Of a stretch of DNA of 33,326 nucleotides, positions 1,378-33,326 are shown piece by piece; position 1 is the stretch's first letter, and each line of letters begins with the position of its first letter. The DNA is from Halobacteriales archaeon QS_9_67_17 (GTDB lineage Archaea; Halobacteriota; Halobacteria; Halobacteriales; Haloarculaceae), in the NCBI GenBank assembly GCA_003023185.1, contig PXSB01000056.1, forward strand, positions 1 to 33,326, given 5' to 3'. The notes beneath the pieces were generated by a model. That model was not told the origin of the DNA. It did not search any database and worked only from the letters and a program-made list of their open reading frames with translations. Both the position numbers and the translations under genes were made by a program.

Positions 1378-1687
1378 GGTGGTGTTCAGGTAAACGGGCC
1401 GTCGCTCGGTCGAGAAGTCGCGGTGAAGGGACTGAAAGGGGCCGTTATCGGCGGCTTCGCCGCCGGTTGCTCGGGAGAGCTCTGCTCTCTCGGTGAGCGC
1501 TCGACCCGGCCCCGGCGTTCGGAAGACGCGAAGGGTCTTCCGCAGCCCGTCAGAAATCTTCGATTTCTGCGGACGACGCAAACCACGAGACGACTCCGCC
1601 GCCACGCTGCACGCAAGGTGAGCGACCGGGAACTTTCCACACCTCGTTGGCCGTAGTCGCCGAACTCACCCTCATTTGAGCACTATC
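1378..1687 (+). repeat. Intergenic repeat element copy A (divergent, expanded interior)
   Basis: Starts 2 nt after the mutS-like stop; ends ggtggtgttcaggta / catttgagcactatc; core 'gggactgaaagggg' ... 'gagcgaccgggaactttccacacctcg'. Confidence 0.75.
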
Positions 1688-14102: not shown

Positions 14103-14117
14103 TTGCACCGAGCCGAG

Positions 14118-14389
14118 GGTAGTGTTCAGATACGCGGGTCGTCACTTGGCCGAGCAACCGCAGTGGGTGGGACTGAAAGGGGCCGGGCGCTCGACGACGC
14201 ACGACGACGCAAGGACCGCATCGCGAGCGACGCGAGCGGGCGGACCGCAGCGAGGTCCGCTCGCGGCTGGAGGCCGCTTGCACGGCCCGTGGAGCTTCGC
14301 TCCACGCTGCGCGCGAGGCGAGCGACCGGGGGCTTTCTCCACCTCGTTGGCCGGCTCTCCTCCGGAGCCACTCTTATCTGAACACTACC
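14118..14389 (+). repeat. Intergenic repeat element copy B (type copy, 272 bp, perfect 15-bp terminal inverted repeats)
   Basis: ggtagtgttcagata (14118-14132) ... tatctgaacactacc (14375-14389); core arms 14167-14193 and 14319-14342. Confidence 0.9.
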
Positions 14390-14406
14390 GGAGCGAACGG
14401 CGTCAG

Positions 14407-17067
14407 TCACTCTTCTAACTGCTCCTGCCATCGCTGGACCGCCGCCATCAGTTCGACCGGCGAGGTCTCGTTCACGTCCGTCGCGCGGAGGTCGTCGAGC
14501 ACGGTCTCGATGTCGGCGTCTATCCCTGTGTCGCTCGCGGTGTCGGCCGCCTGCTTGCCGCTTTTCTCGCCGCCTGTGAACTCCCCGCGTCCCAAGTCGA
14601 ACGTCGTCTGGACGGTGCCGTCCGAGGAGCTACCTCGCGCCTCGATGGCCTTCTCGCGGCGGAGTCGGTCGAGGACGGTCCCGGCCCGCGAGACGACGGG
14701 GTCGGGGACGCCCGCGAGTTCGGCGACATGGACACCGTAGGAGCGGTCTGTCGGCCCCTCGGCGACCGTCCGCAGGAACGTCACGTCGTCGCCGGCGTCG
14801 TCCACCGCGACGTGGACGTTCGCCACGCGGTCGAGGTGGTCCGCGAGCGCGGTGAGTTCGTGGTAGTGGGTGGCGAACAGCGTCTTCGCGCCGACCTCGT
14901 TGTGGAAATACTCGGTCGCGGCCCACGCGATAGAGATGCCGTCGTACGTCGCCGTCCCCCGGCCCACCTCGTCGAGGACGACCAGCGACTCCTCGGTCGC
15001 GGAGTGGAGGATGTTCGCCAACTCGCCCATCTCGACCATGAACGTTGAGCGGCCCTGTGCGAGTTCGTCGAGCGCGCCGACGCGCGTGAAGATACCGTCG
15101 ACGAGCCCGACCTCGGCGGCTTCGGCGGGGACGAAACTGCCCACCTGCGCGAGCAGCGTGACGAGCGCCGCCTGTCGCATGTACGTCGATTTCCCGCTCA
15201 TGTTCGGGCCGGTGACGAGCAGGAACCGCCGGTCGCGGTCGAGATGGAGGTCGTTCGGGACGAACTCGACGGACTGCTCGACGACCGGGTGGCGACCCGC
15301 CTCGACGCGGAGTGTGTCGCCGTCGGTCAGTTCGGGGCGCGTCCAGTCGTTGCGCGCGGCGTGAGCCGAGAGCGAGCAGTACACGTCCAGTTCGGCGAGC
15401 GCGCGCCCGACGCGCTGGAGCAGGTCGGCGCTGTCGGCGAGCCGGTCACGGAGCTCCTGAAACAGTTCGTACTCCAGTTCGCCGCGCCGCTCCTCCAATC
15501 GGATGATCTCGCGTTCTCGCTCTCGTAGCTCCGGCGTGGTGAACCGCTCGCTGTTCTTCAGCGTCTTGATCCCCTCGTAGTGGTCCGGGGCGGCGTCGGC
15601 CTCCGACTGGCCCACCTGAATGTAGTAGCCGTCCGTCTTGTTGCGGTCGACGCTCAGATGCGTGAGACCGTGCGCCTCGGACTCGCGGTCCGCGAGCGTG
15701 TCGATCCACTCGCGAGCGGACTCGTGCTGCTCGATCACGTCGGCCAACTCCGGGTCGTAGCCGGGCGCGAGCAGGCCGCCCTCGGTCAGCGTGCCCGGTG
15801 GGTCGGTCGCGAGCGCGTCGTCCAACTCGGCGTGGAGGTCCGCGACGGCCGCGCGGTCGACCCCCTCGAACACCGTCGCGACCGCGGAGTCGTCCAGCCG
15901 CGGACTCGAATCGACGGCCTCGGCGAGGTCGGCGACCAGTCCGAGCGTGTCGCGGACGCGGCAGGCCCCCGGTGCGTCCAGACTCCCCGACACCGCCCGC
16001 GAGGCCAGCCGTTCGAGGTCGTAGACGTCGCCGAGCAGGTCGCGGAGTCGTTCGCGGCCCATCGCGTCGGTCGCCAGCGCGGCGACGGCCGCCTGTCTGT
16101 CGTCGAGTTCCGCGCGGCGACGGATCGGGCGGGCGAGCCACTCACGGAGGAGGCGACCGCCGGCGCTCGTCTCGGTGTGGTCGACCGTCTCGAACAGCGA
16201 GACGCCGCGGTCGGTCATCGGCTCCGTTAATTCGAGATTGCGCTGGGTGGTCGCGTCGAGCGTGACGTGCTCGTCGGGCGTGTAGGCGTGGAGGCGGGTG
16301 ACGGACGCGAGCACGCCCACGCCGGTCGCGTCCACGTACGCGAGGGCTGCGCCGGCCGCCTGCACGGCCGCGTCCGTCTCTACTCCGACCTGTTCGGTCG
16401 CGCCGCCAAACTGCTCGCGGAGGGTGTGACGGGCACGCCCCGGCGCGAAGTCGTCGGTCGCGTGGAGCGTCAGCGTCGCGTCGACGCGCTCGCGAACGGA
16501 ATCGAGGAACGCGTCGTCGCCGCGCAGGTCGGGACCCGGCAACACCTCCGTCGGCGCGAACCGGTAGAGTTCCGTCAGCGCCTGCGCCTCGGCGTCCGCA
16601 CCCGCGACGCTCGTCACGTGGAACCGACCGGTCGTCACGTCGAGGAAGGCGAGCCCATATGCGCTCGCCGCGCGGACGACCGTCGCGAGATACCGCGCCG
16701 CCTCGCTGGTCGGGTCAACGAGCGTGCCGGGGGTGACGACCCGCGAGACGCGCCGCTCGTGGCCGCCGTCCGTCTCGTGCTGGTCGGCGACCGCGACCCG
16801 ATAGCCGCGCTCGACGAGTGCCTTCAGATACGGGTCGAGGTCGTCCACCGGGACGCCGGCCATCTCGTAGCTGTCACCGCCCGAGGCTCGCTCGGACACC
16901 TTCAGGTCTAACTCGTCGCCGACGGTCGCGGCGTCCTCGCCGAAGAACTCGTAGAAGTCGCCCATCTGCATCGCCAGCAGGTCTGCTTCGGCCTCGCGTT
17001 TCAAGTCGAGATACTCCCCGACGATGCCGTCCGCAGTCATGCCCGGGTCTGGTTCCGGTTCGGGCAT
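14407..17067 (-). CDS. mutS: DNA mismatch repair protein MutS
   Basis: N-terminal 'LKREAEADLLAMQMGDFYEFFGEDA', ATPase 'VTGPNMSGKSTYMRQAALVTLLAQVGSFVPA', 'LDEVGRGTATYDGISIAWA', 'TLFATHYHEL'. Confidence 0.97.
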   Translation of the reverse strand: MPEPEPDPGMTADGIVGEYLDLKREAEADLLAMQMGDFYEFFGEDAATVGDELDLKVSERASGGDSYEMAGVPVDDLDPYLKALVERGYRVAVADQHETDGGHERRVSRVVTPGTLVDPTSEAARYLATVVRAASAYGLAFLDVTTGRFHVTSVAGADAEAQALTELYRFAPTEVLPGPDLRGDDAFLDSVRERVDATLTLHATDDFAPGRARHTLREQFGGATEQVGVETDAAVQAAGAALAYVDATGVGVLASVTRLHAYTPDEHVTLDATTQRNLELTEPMTDRGVSLFETVDHTETSAGGRLLREWLARPIRRRAELDDRQAAVAALATDAMGRERLRDLLGDVYDLERLASRAVSGSLDAPGACRVRDTLGLVADLAEAVDSSPRLDDSAVATVFEGVDRAAVADLHAELDDALATDPPGTLTEGGLLAPGYDPELADVIEQHESAREWIDTLADRESEAHGLTHLSVDRNKTDGYYIQVGQSEADAAPDHYEGIKTLKNSERFTTPELREREREIIRLEERRGELEYELFQELRDRLADSADLLQRVGRALAELDVYCSLSAHAARNDWTRPELTDGDTLRVEAGRHPVVEQSVEFVPNDLHLDRDRRFLLVTGPNMSGKSTYMRQAALVTLLAQVGSFVPAEAAEVGLVDGIFTRVGALDELAQGRSTFMVEMGELANILHSATEESLVVLDEVGRGTATYDGISIAWAATEYFHNEVGAKTLFATHYHELTALADHLDRVANVHVAVDDAGDDVTFLRTVAEGPTDRSYGVHVAELAGVPDPVVSRAGTVLDRLRREKAIEARGSSSDGTVQTTFDLGRGEFTGGEKSGKQAADTASDTGIDADIETVLDDLRATDVNETSPVELMAAVQRWQEQLEE

Positions 17068-22916: not shown

Positions 22917-23121
22917 GCTAGTGTTCTAATAAATCGGATGAGCTGGCACAGCCAATGTGACGAGTTTGGAAGCCCCCGCCAGCTCGACTCCCGGGCCTCG
23001 CTGCGGTCCTCGGCCGTTGGCCTGCGGTCCTTGCGTCGGCCGGGGTCGTCGAGCCGACGGCCCCTTCCAGTCCCACCCGACCGCACTCGTTCGGTCGGCC
23101 ACCGTCTATCTGGACACTGCC
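22917..23121 (-). repeat. Intergenic repeat element copy C
   Basis: Ends ggctagtgttctaata / tatctggacactgcc; arms 22968-22988 and 23048-23068, then AGT CCCAC at 23069-23076. Confidence 0.85.
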
Positions 23122-23130
23122 ATCGCCGGA

Positions 23131-23347
23131 GCGGTGTTCAGATACAGGGGTCGTCGCGCGACTGACAATCGCCGTGGGCAGGACCGAAAGGGGTCGGGCG
23201 CTGCGGGAAGCCCGACGACGCAAGCACCGGAAGCCGGCCGCAGGGAGGCTACGGAGCGCAGCGAGGCGCGCGACCGCAGCGACCGGGGGCTTTCTACACC
23301 CTGTTGTCCTCCTCTTTCTCCTCGAAGTCACTCTTCTTCGAACGCCA
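23131..23347 (+). repeat. Intergenic repeat element copy D, 9 bp from copy C in opposite orientation
   Basis: gcggtgttcagata start; GAAAG-GGG (23186-23193) ... CCGG-GGG-CTTTC (23283-23294); degenerate right end ttcgaacgccac. Confidence 0.8.
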
Positions 23348-23397
23348 CTCGTCGTGCAGGCCAAAAGACGAAGAGGACCCCTACCCGAGACTTCGGT

Positions 23398-27210: not shown

Positions 27211-27429
27211 GGCTAGTGTTCAGAGAAGGACAATTCGGTTGGATGAGCCAGCAACAGGGTGGAGAAAGCCCCCGGTCGCTGCGGTCGCACGCCTCGCTGC
27301 GCTCCGCAGCCTCCCTCCGGTCGGCTTGCGGTGCTTAGGTCGTCGGGCTTCCCGCAGTGACCGGCCCCTTTCAGTCCCACCCGGCACGGTTTCTCGGGCA
27401 GGCAACGACCCGATTATTTGAATACTACC
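27211..27429 (-). repeat. Intergenic repeat element copy E
   Basis: Ends ggctagtgttcagag / tatttgaatactacc; GTGGA-GAAAG-CCC-CCGGTCGCTGCGG (27259-27284) opposite CCGCAGTGACCGG-CCC-CTTTC-AGT-CCCAC (27352-27380). Confidence 0.88.
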
Positions 27430-29890: not shown

Positions 29891-30107
29891 GGTAGTGCTG
29901 TTTAGTGACGCCGTGGAGTCGTGGTGACTAAAGCGGTGACGGCTTTGGAAGCCCCTGTGCGCTCGACTCGCGCGCCTCGCTGCGGTCCGCCCGCTCGCGG
30001 TGCTCGCGGTGCGGTCCTTACGTCGCCGTGCTTCGTCGAGCGCACAGCCCCTTCCAGTCCCACCCCGAGCGGTTCCCTCGCCAGCCATCGTTTAGGTAAA
30101 CACGATC
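29891..30107 (-). repeat. Intergenic repeat element copy F
   Basis: GGAAG-CCC-CTGTGCGCTCGAC (29947-29967) opposite GTCGAGCGCACAG-CCC-CTTCC-AGT-CCCAC (30035-30063); degenerate TIR ends. Confidence 0.87.
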
Positions 30108-33260: not shown

Positions 33261-33326
33261 GGCGGTGTCCAGATACGCGATGGCTACTCGAACGAGTGCG
33301 GTCGGGTGGGACTGGAAGGGGCCGGC
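33261..33326 (+). repeat. Intergenic repeat element copy G (truncated by window end)
   Basis: ggcggtgtccagata followed by gggtgggactggaaggggccggc. Confidence 0.75.

Follow-up and report, generated by a model that had tools for sequence, protein, structure and literature searches.

The window analyzed here, a stretch of 33,326 nucleotides, is contig C56 of the draft genome of Halobacteriales archaeon QS_9_67_17 (G000; 2.02 Mb, 102 contigs, 67.5% complete). Two MutS-type genes stand within 14 kb of window sequence, at 207-1376 on the plus strand and at 14407-17067 on the minus strand; element copy A neighbors a MutS domain V protein and copy B a full MutS. The seven intergenic copies (A to G) proposed in the initial annotation were all recovered, with boundaries 0-3 bases from those first assigned. 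They are given below together with the target duplications of copy B, which are compared with the empty site of the close relative G086; E-values refer to a covariance model (CM) and are rough by design.

1378..1687, plus strand: copy A, IS6-type MITE; core on the plus strand at ~1424-1632, with extra hairpins that lengthen it; degenerate right end
14110..14117, no strand: left 8-bp target duplication of copy B, GAGCCGAG; 6/8 versus the G086 empty-site sequence GGGGCGAG
14118..14389, plus strand: copy B, complete IS6-type MITE of 272 bp; core at 14165-14341 with extra hairpins; CM E=1e-9
14390..14397, no strand: right 8-bp target duplication of copy B, GGAGCGAA; 6/8 versus the same G086 empty-site sequence
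22917..23121, minus strand: copy C, IS6-type MITE; core at 22964-23078 on the minus strand; GGAAG/CTTCC subtype; CM E=2e-18
23130..23349, plus strand: copy D, IS6-type MITE; core at 23176-23298; right end decayed; CM E=1e-15
27212..27429, minus strand: copy E, IS6-type MITE of 218 bp; core at 27260-27382 on the minus strand; CM E=2e-19
29894..30107 (start approximate), minus strand: copy F, divergent ends; core at 29943-30065 on the minus strand; GGAAG/CTTCC subtype; CM E=3e-19
33261..33326, plus strand: copy G, truncated by the contig end to its 5' part; terminal inverted repeat (TIR) 14/16; core motif at 33308-33322

Copy B is bounded by near-perfect terminal repeats, GGTAGTGTTCAGATA and TATCTGAACACTACC (TIR 15/16 and 16/16). 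The ends of copy A match at 14/16 and 12/16, with the core motif at 1428-1442, and copy D adjoins copy C in the opposite orientation. Both the shared ends and the shared core that had been proposed for these copies exceed chance: the end motif TAGTGTTCAGATA, with at most 3 mismatches, is found 10 times against 1.2 expected, and the core motif 9 times against 2.1 expected, each count being reached in 0 of 100 shuffles. As a point for annotation, crude gene calling puts some copies within predicted ORFs.

Outside the window, about 160 further copies are present in the genome. More specifically, the exact core motif occurs 166 times in G000 and 0 times in the reversed control, and with at most 2 mismatches it occurs 193 times versus 18 in the control. 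This is the highest core count among 292 haloarchaeal genomes, and the elements make up ~1.8% of the assembly (count multiplied by the median length of 218 bp). The window is indeed unusually dense, as had been claimed, with 7 copies versus the ~2.7 per 33 kb predicted by the genome mean. The contig ends of C7 and C23 and the right end of the window fall inside or beside element copies; since several contigs end in this way, the true copy number is probably above the count.

The element had been described as a single unit. The family stands, and it comprises two things, namely IS6-type ends at the level of the genus and a core that is class-wide. The outer layer is a non-autonomous IS6-family transposon (MITE), a known kind of element. 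In the copies of the source genome, the end motif lies at a fixed spacing, 51 nt upstream and 52 nt downstream of the core. Several loci of relatives that encode the IS6-type transposase domain PF13610 (L170, L175, L179, L180, L187, L188) carry the ends GGTAGTGTTCAGATAAGC and GGCGGTGTTCAGATAAGG, which match the MITE ends including their GGTAG/GGCGG asymmetry. The sequences GGTAGTGTTCAGATAAG and GGCGGTGTTCAGATAAG bound both PF13610 loci and MITE copies, the shared terminal repeats by which an IS6-family MITE is recognized. One such locus, L188, is an insertion sequence of 697 bp; its ORF encodes 211 aa, and its 8-bp duplication, CCGCCGGG, is perfect. The MITE copies measure 137-326 bp, under the ~500 bp limit for an IS6-family MITE and too short for the ~211-aa transposase of L188 plus ends, which agrees with the earlier observation that no transposase ORF lies inside.

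Members of the IS6 family produce 8-bp target repeats (PMC7986276). The earlier impression that there is no clear target-site duplication fails at the level of the family, as flank identity peaks at exactly 8 bp (0.55 versus 0.275, 43 elements) and is near background at k = 6, 7, 9, 10 and 11. Among 77 elements of the source genome, 32% have flanks that match at 6/8 positions or more, versus 0.8% in mismatched controls, so that the 8-bp duplication of an IS6-family MITE is present. Within the window the duplications are degenerate, with copies E and F keeping 6/8. An identity as IS200/IS605-derived PATEs, which have subterminal palindromes, is excluded by the terminal repeats and the 8-bp duplication. 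A PF13610 transposase was not found in the assemblies of G000 (67% complete) or G086 (96% complete). Insertion sequences are often missing from draft assemblies of this kind. The MITE copies would presumably be mobilized in trans by an IS6 transposase.

In their IS6 terminal repeats, 8-bp target duplication, lack of an ORF and length, the copies resemble two elements (227 and 336 bp) that a review of the IS6 family lists as MITEs (PMC7986276), with which they were compared by description only; the copies here number more than 160 and hold a conserved, covarying structured interior common to many other element types. The haloarchaeal IS6/IS240-type insertion sequences (clades Ai-Aiii, PMC7986276) share identical ends and the 8-bp duplication, but are ~700 bp long, encode a DDE transposase and have no core inside.

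Comparison with G086, which aligns to the window at 92-96%, provided the filled and empty sites by which movement can be judged. The sites of copies B and F are empty in G086, whereas copies C and D are also present there at the same sites. At the site of copy E the junction is identical in G086, but the copy found there is another one and is oppositely oriented. Both there and at G000 C68 ~6667, the other site of opposite orientation versus G086, the interiors have diverged, like those of the Haloquadratum 'switch repeats'. In two more 20-kb regions compared between the two genomes, G086 is empty at C68:18057, where GTAGCCAC is duplicated in G000, and at C50:44033, an empty site placed by alignment coordinates alone; one insertion is found in G086 only and has its own 8-bp duplication. 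Synteny between G000 and G086 breaks at element copies at C50 ~40,507-40,743 and 45,929-46,137 (L251 2508-2744 and 7930-8138), a coincidence which suggests that element copies act as recombination sites. The MITEs, PATEs and SMRs of Haloquadratum are likewise dense, transposase-free repeats, and site E is reminiscent of their 'switch repeats', which occupy identical positions; PATEs differ in being without terminal repeats or duplications, and the accessible portion of that account describes no conserved structured core (PMC3119063).

The inner core is a separate module of ~120 nt, older and wider in range than the IS6 ends. It extends from GGGACTGRAAGGGGC to GGGGCTTYC and often occurs without IS6 ends. 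Of 292 haloarchaeal genomes, 160 carry the exact motif, and so do 51 of 77 genera, at 0 to 166 copies per genome and with one control match overall. BLAST against plasmids recovered mainly query positions 46-166, which correspond to the core, from many haloarchaeal genera. At least 108 stretches from bacterial and archaeal genomes are haloarchaeal wherever the name is informative, and phage records gave no match. In many genera, pairs of cores stand head to head ~46 nt apart (L034, L042, L045, L055, L106, L128 and others); some of these dimers have IS6-type outer ends, and L106 also has an 8-bp duplication. In several genera (L040, L109, L112, L115, L086 and others) another conserved haloarchaeal module, GCGCGAGGGATGAGC...CGGCTGGGGAGGGTGTGGC, adjoins the core on its upstream side; this module often follows a long hairpin and is also found without the core.

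When 70 cores from numerous species are aligned, they fold as a four-helix rod of 28 pairs. Helix P1 (GRAAG/CTTYC) is followed by an invariant G-rich internal loop with GGG opposite GGG, by P2 of ~12 bp and by P3, then by a conserved loop with GAYGYAAG opposite CAGCGAG, and finally by P4; the tip of the rod beyond P4 is variable and grows by added hairpins. Pairing is lacking at many of the invariant positions, namely the GGG/GGG between P1 and P2, the GAYGYAAG/CAGCGAG loop and an A.A mismatch in P4. In these 70 cores, 95.0% of the cells are paired and both sides have changed in 21 of the 28 pairs. The covariation score of 0.506 exceeds the 0.136 of shuffled and the ≤0.082 of slid partners (about six times the latter), as is seen in structured RNA families. 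Copies of the source genome, nearly all outside the training set, score 0.320 versus ≤0.065 in controls, in an alignment that was fitted to the covariance model and is hence biased towards it. G-U outnumbers A-C at paired positions by about 2.5-fold (38:17 and 43:14), from which one strand appears to be folded; single-stranded DNA would fit equally. Copies C and F of the window fold with z = -4.2 and z = -5.1, respectively, and both strands fold well. A G-quadruplex formed from the four conserved G-runs was also considered and rejected, being absent from the minimum-energy fold in 70 of 70 sequences when allowed.

Copies that have lost P2 to P4 recur both in the source genome (L194, L208, L220, L230) and elsewhere (L121, L122, L127, L129). 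In these, GGGACTGAAAGGGGC is joined to GGGGCTTTC, or nearly so, which is consistent with a deletion between direct GGGGC repeats. One such copy of the source genome keeps a 7/8 duplication, and the full fold is therefore probably not required for movement.

One site allows the core to be followed outside the IS6 context. Four species of Natrinema and relatives (L041, L050, L058, L110) carry a core in the same gap between genes that, from their translations, we take to be nucS and endA, and no IS6 ends are visible at this site. In these species the seven outermost P2 pairs are TTCCGGG/CCCGGAA, TTGCGCC/GGCGCAA, TGGCGCG/CGTGCCA and TGACTCG/CGAGTCA. Five of the seven have been rewritten, and pairing is retained in all 28 cells, one of them as G-U. 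As the helix has been rewritten at an orthologous site and yet is paired, the fold would seem to be selected in place, and transposition alone would hardly explain it; conversion from another copy is the remaining alternative for these helix changes.

The core is also absent from the collections of described RNAs. The window has 0 matches at the Rfam 15 gathering threshold, and a permissive search of the core-bearing loci gave no credible weak match, only an unrelated leuA-Halobacteria match in L086. Like Rfam families, the core has a conserved secondary structure supported by covariation, but it has no match among them. The core motif was not found printed in the haloarchaeal literature covered by the search, which lay mostly outside subscription papers. 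The element is thus apparently a known mobile-element kind that carries a class-wide structured module undescribed in Rfam or the searched literature. The bacterial BOX, ERIC and Correia elements are abundant intergenic mobile repeats with conserved stem-loops and modular interiors (for a review of MITEs, see PMC10969869). The element described here works similarly, a likeness of description; the bacterial elements belong to another domain of life, and here the core is class-wide and separable from the ends.

Taken as a whole, we consider it probable that the locus combines two layers, an IS6-type MITE and an independent class-wide structured module that most likely works as RNA. The initial annotation had left open a MITE-like element, a structured RNA or 3'-UTR module, or both. 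Both hold, as separable layers: the MITE through terminal repeats identical to those of the IS6 family, the 8-bp duplication and empty sites, and the structured module through strong covariation, including that of mostly held-out copies and of one orthologous site without IS6 ends. The 3'-UTR module finds no support, as 35 intergenic copies of the source genome lie in divergent gaps, 40 in tandem and only 10 in convergent ones, and two shared sites are flipped between species. A 3'-UTR or leader role had also been considered from gene orientation, and the early bias weakened with more than three times as many copies of the source genome. In tandem gaps, 49 copies are sense versus 31 antisense (p ~0.06; 24:16 in the source genome, 25:15 in others), counts that depend on crude gene calls. 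A replication-strand bias in orientation was absent on the full match list for G290.

Under the two-layer reading, the module would most likely work as RNA: the core strand would be transcribed, and through helices that vary freely it would present its invariant loops to a partner conserved among haloarchaea. In most lineages the module would persist in few copies; in the source genus and some others, IS6 ends would have captured it and amplified it, to more than 160 copies in the source genome. Most MITE copies would then probably be neutral hitchhikers and not regulators of the adjoining gene. A more specific version, which we regard as plausible but hold only tentatively, is that the core is a haloarchaeal ncRNA, class-wide and so far undescribed, which has a protein partner of its own and serves a function in the host. 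It would have been retained over genus-level time at certain fixed sites, the nucS-endA gap among them, and repeatedly captured and amplified by different mobile elements.

Of the competing explanations, the strongest, although unlikely in our view, is that the fold acts as DNA, with a single-stranded core hairpin being bound by protein during replication, repair or transposition and no RNA being needed. REP/BIME and IS200/IS605 hairpins are recognized by protein. The elements are mobile, the head-to-head dimers with their outward-facing cores recall BIMEs, and the polarity of the fold would suit one DNA strand equally. Palindrome-based mobile elements, the PATEs, are also known in haloarchaea, but the ends found here are of the DDE-type IS6 family with an 8-bp duplication, whereas PATEs lack terminal repeats and duplications (PMC3119063). 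Furthermore, the fold persists at an orthologous site where these ends are missing, and copies without P2 to P4 exist, including the one with a 7/8 duplication.

Less probable still is an ordinary MITE with a palindromic interior, in which quasi-palindrome correction and gene conversion among copies, and not function, would maintain the pairing. MITE transcripts usually make stable stem-loops (PMC10969869), the good folding of both strands fits a palindrome, and the many related copies permit conversion, which could mimic some compensatory change. However, correction would erase the mismatched loops, GGG/GGG and the A.A of P4, and yet these are the most conserved part; the excess of G-U above A-C and a class-wide core that outlives the IS6 ends also argue against it. 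Least probable of all is a cis-regulatory leader or insulator of the adjoining gene, spread through its usefulness upstream of promoters: the scarcity of convergent gaps noted above, together with 12 dimer cores of other species that lie in divergent gaps, against none in convergent ones, would suit it, but part of the excess may stem from the probably greater length of divergent gaps, the sense bias in tandem gaps is weak, orientation is flipped at the two shared sites and copy B itself sits in a convergent gap.

If the module works as RNA, as the two-layer reading holds, a whole archaeal class has an unstudied RNA with invariant loops and rewritten helices, and a partner protein to be found. 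The IS6-type ends can carry a structured module to genome saturation, as the source genome illustrates. Finally, the sites that are filled, empty or flipped between the two close species offer paired material for studying effects on neighboring genes.
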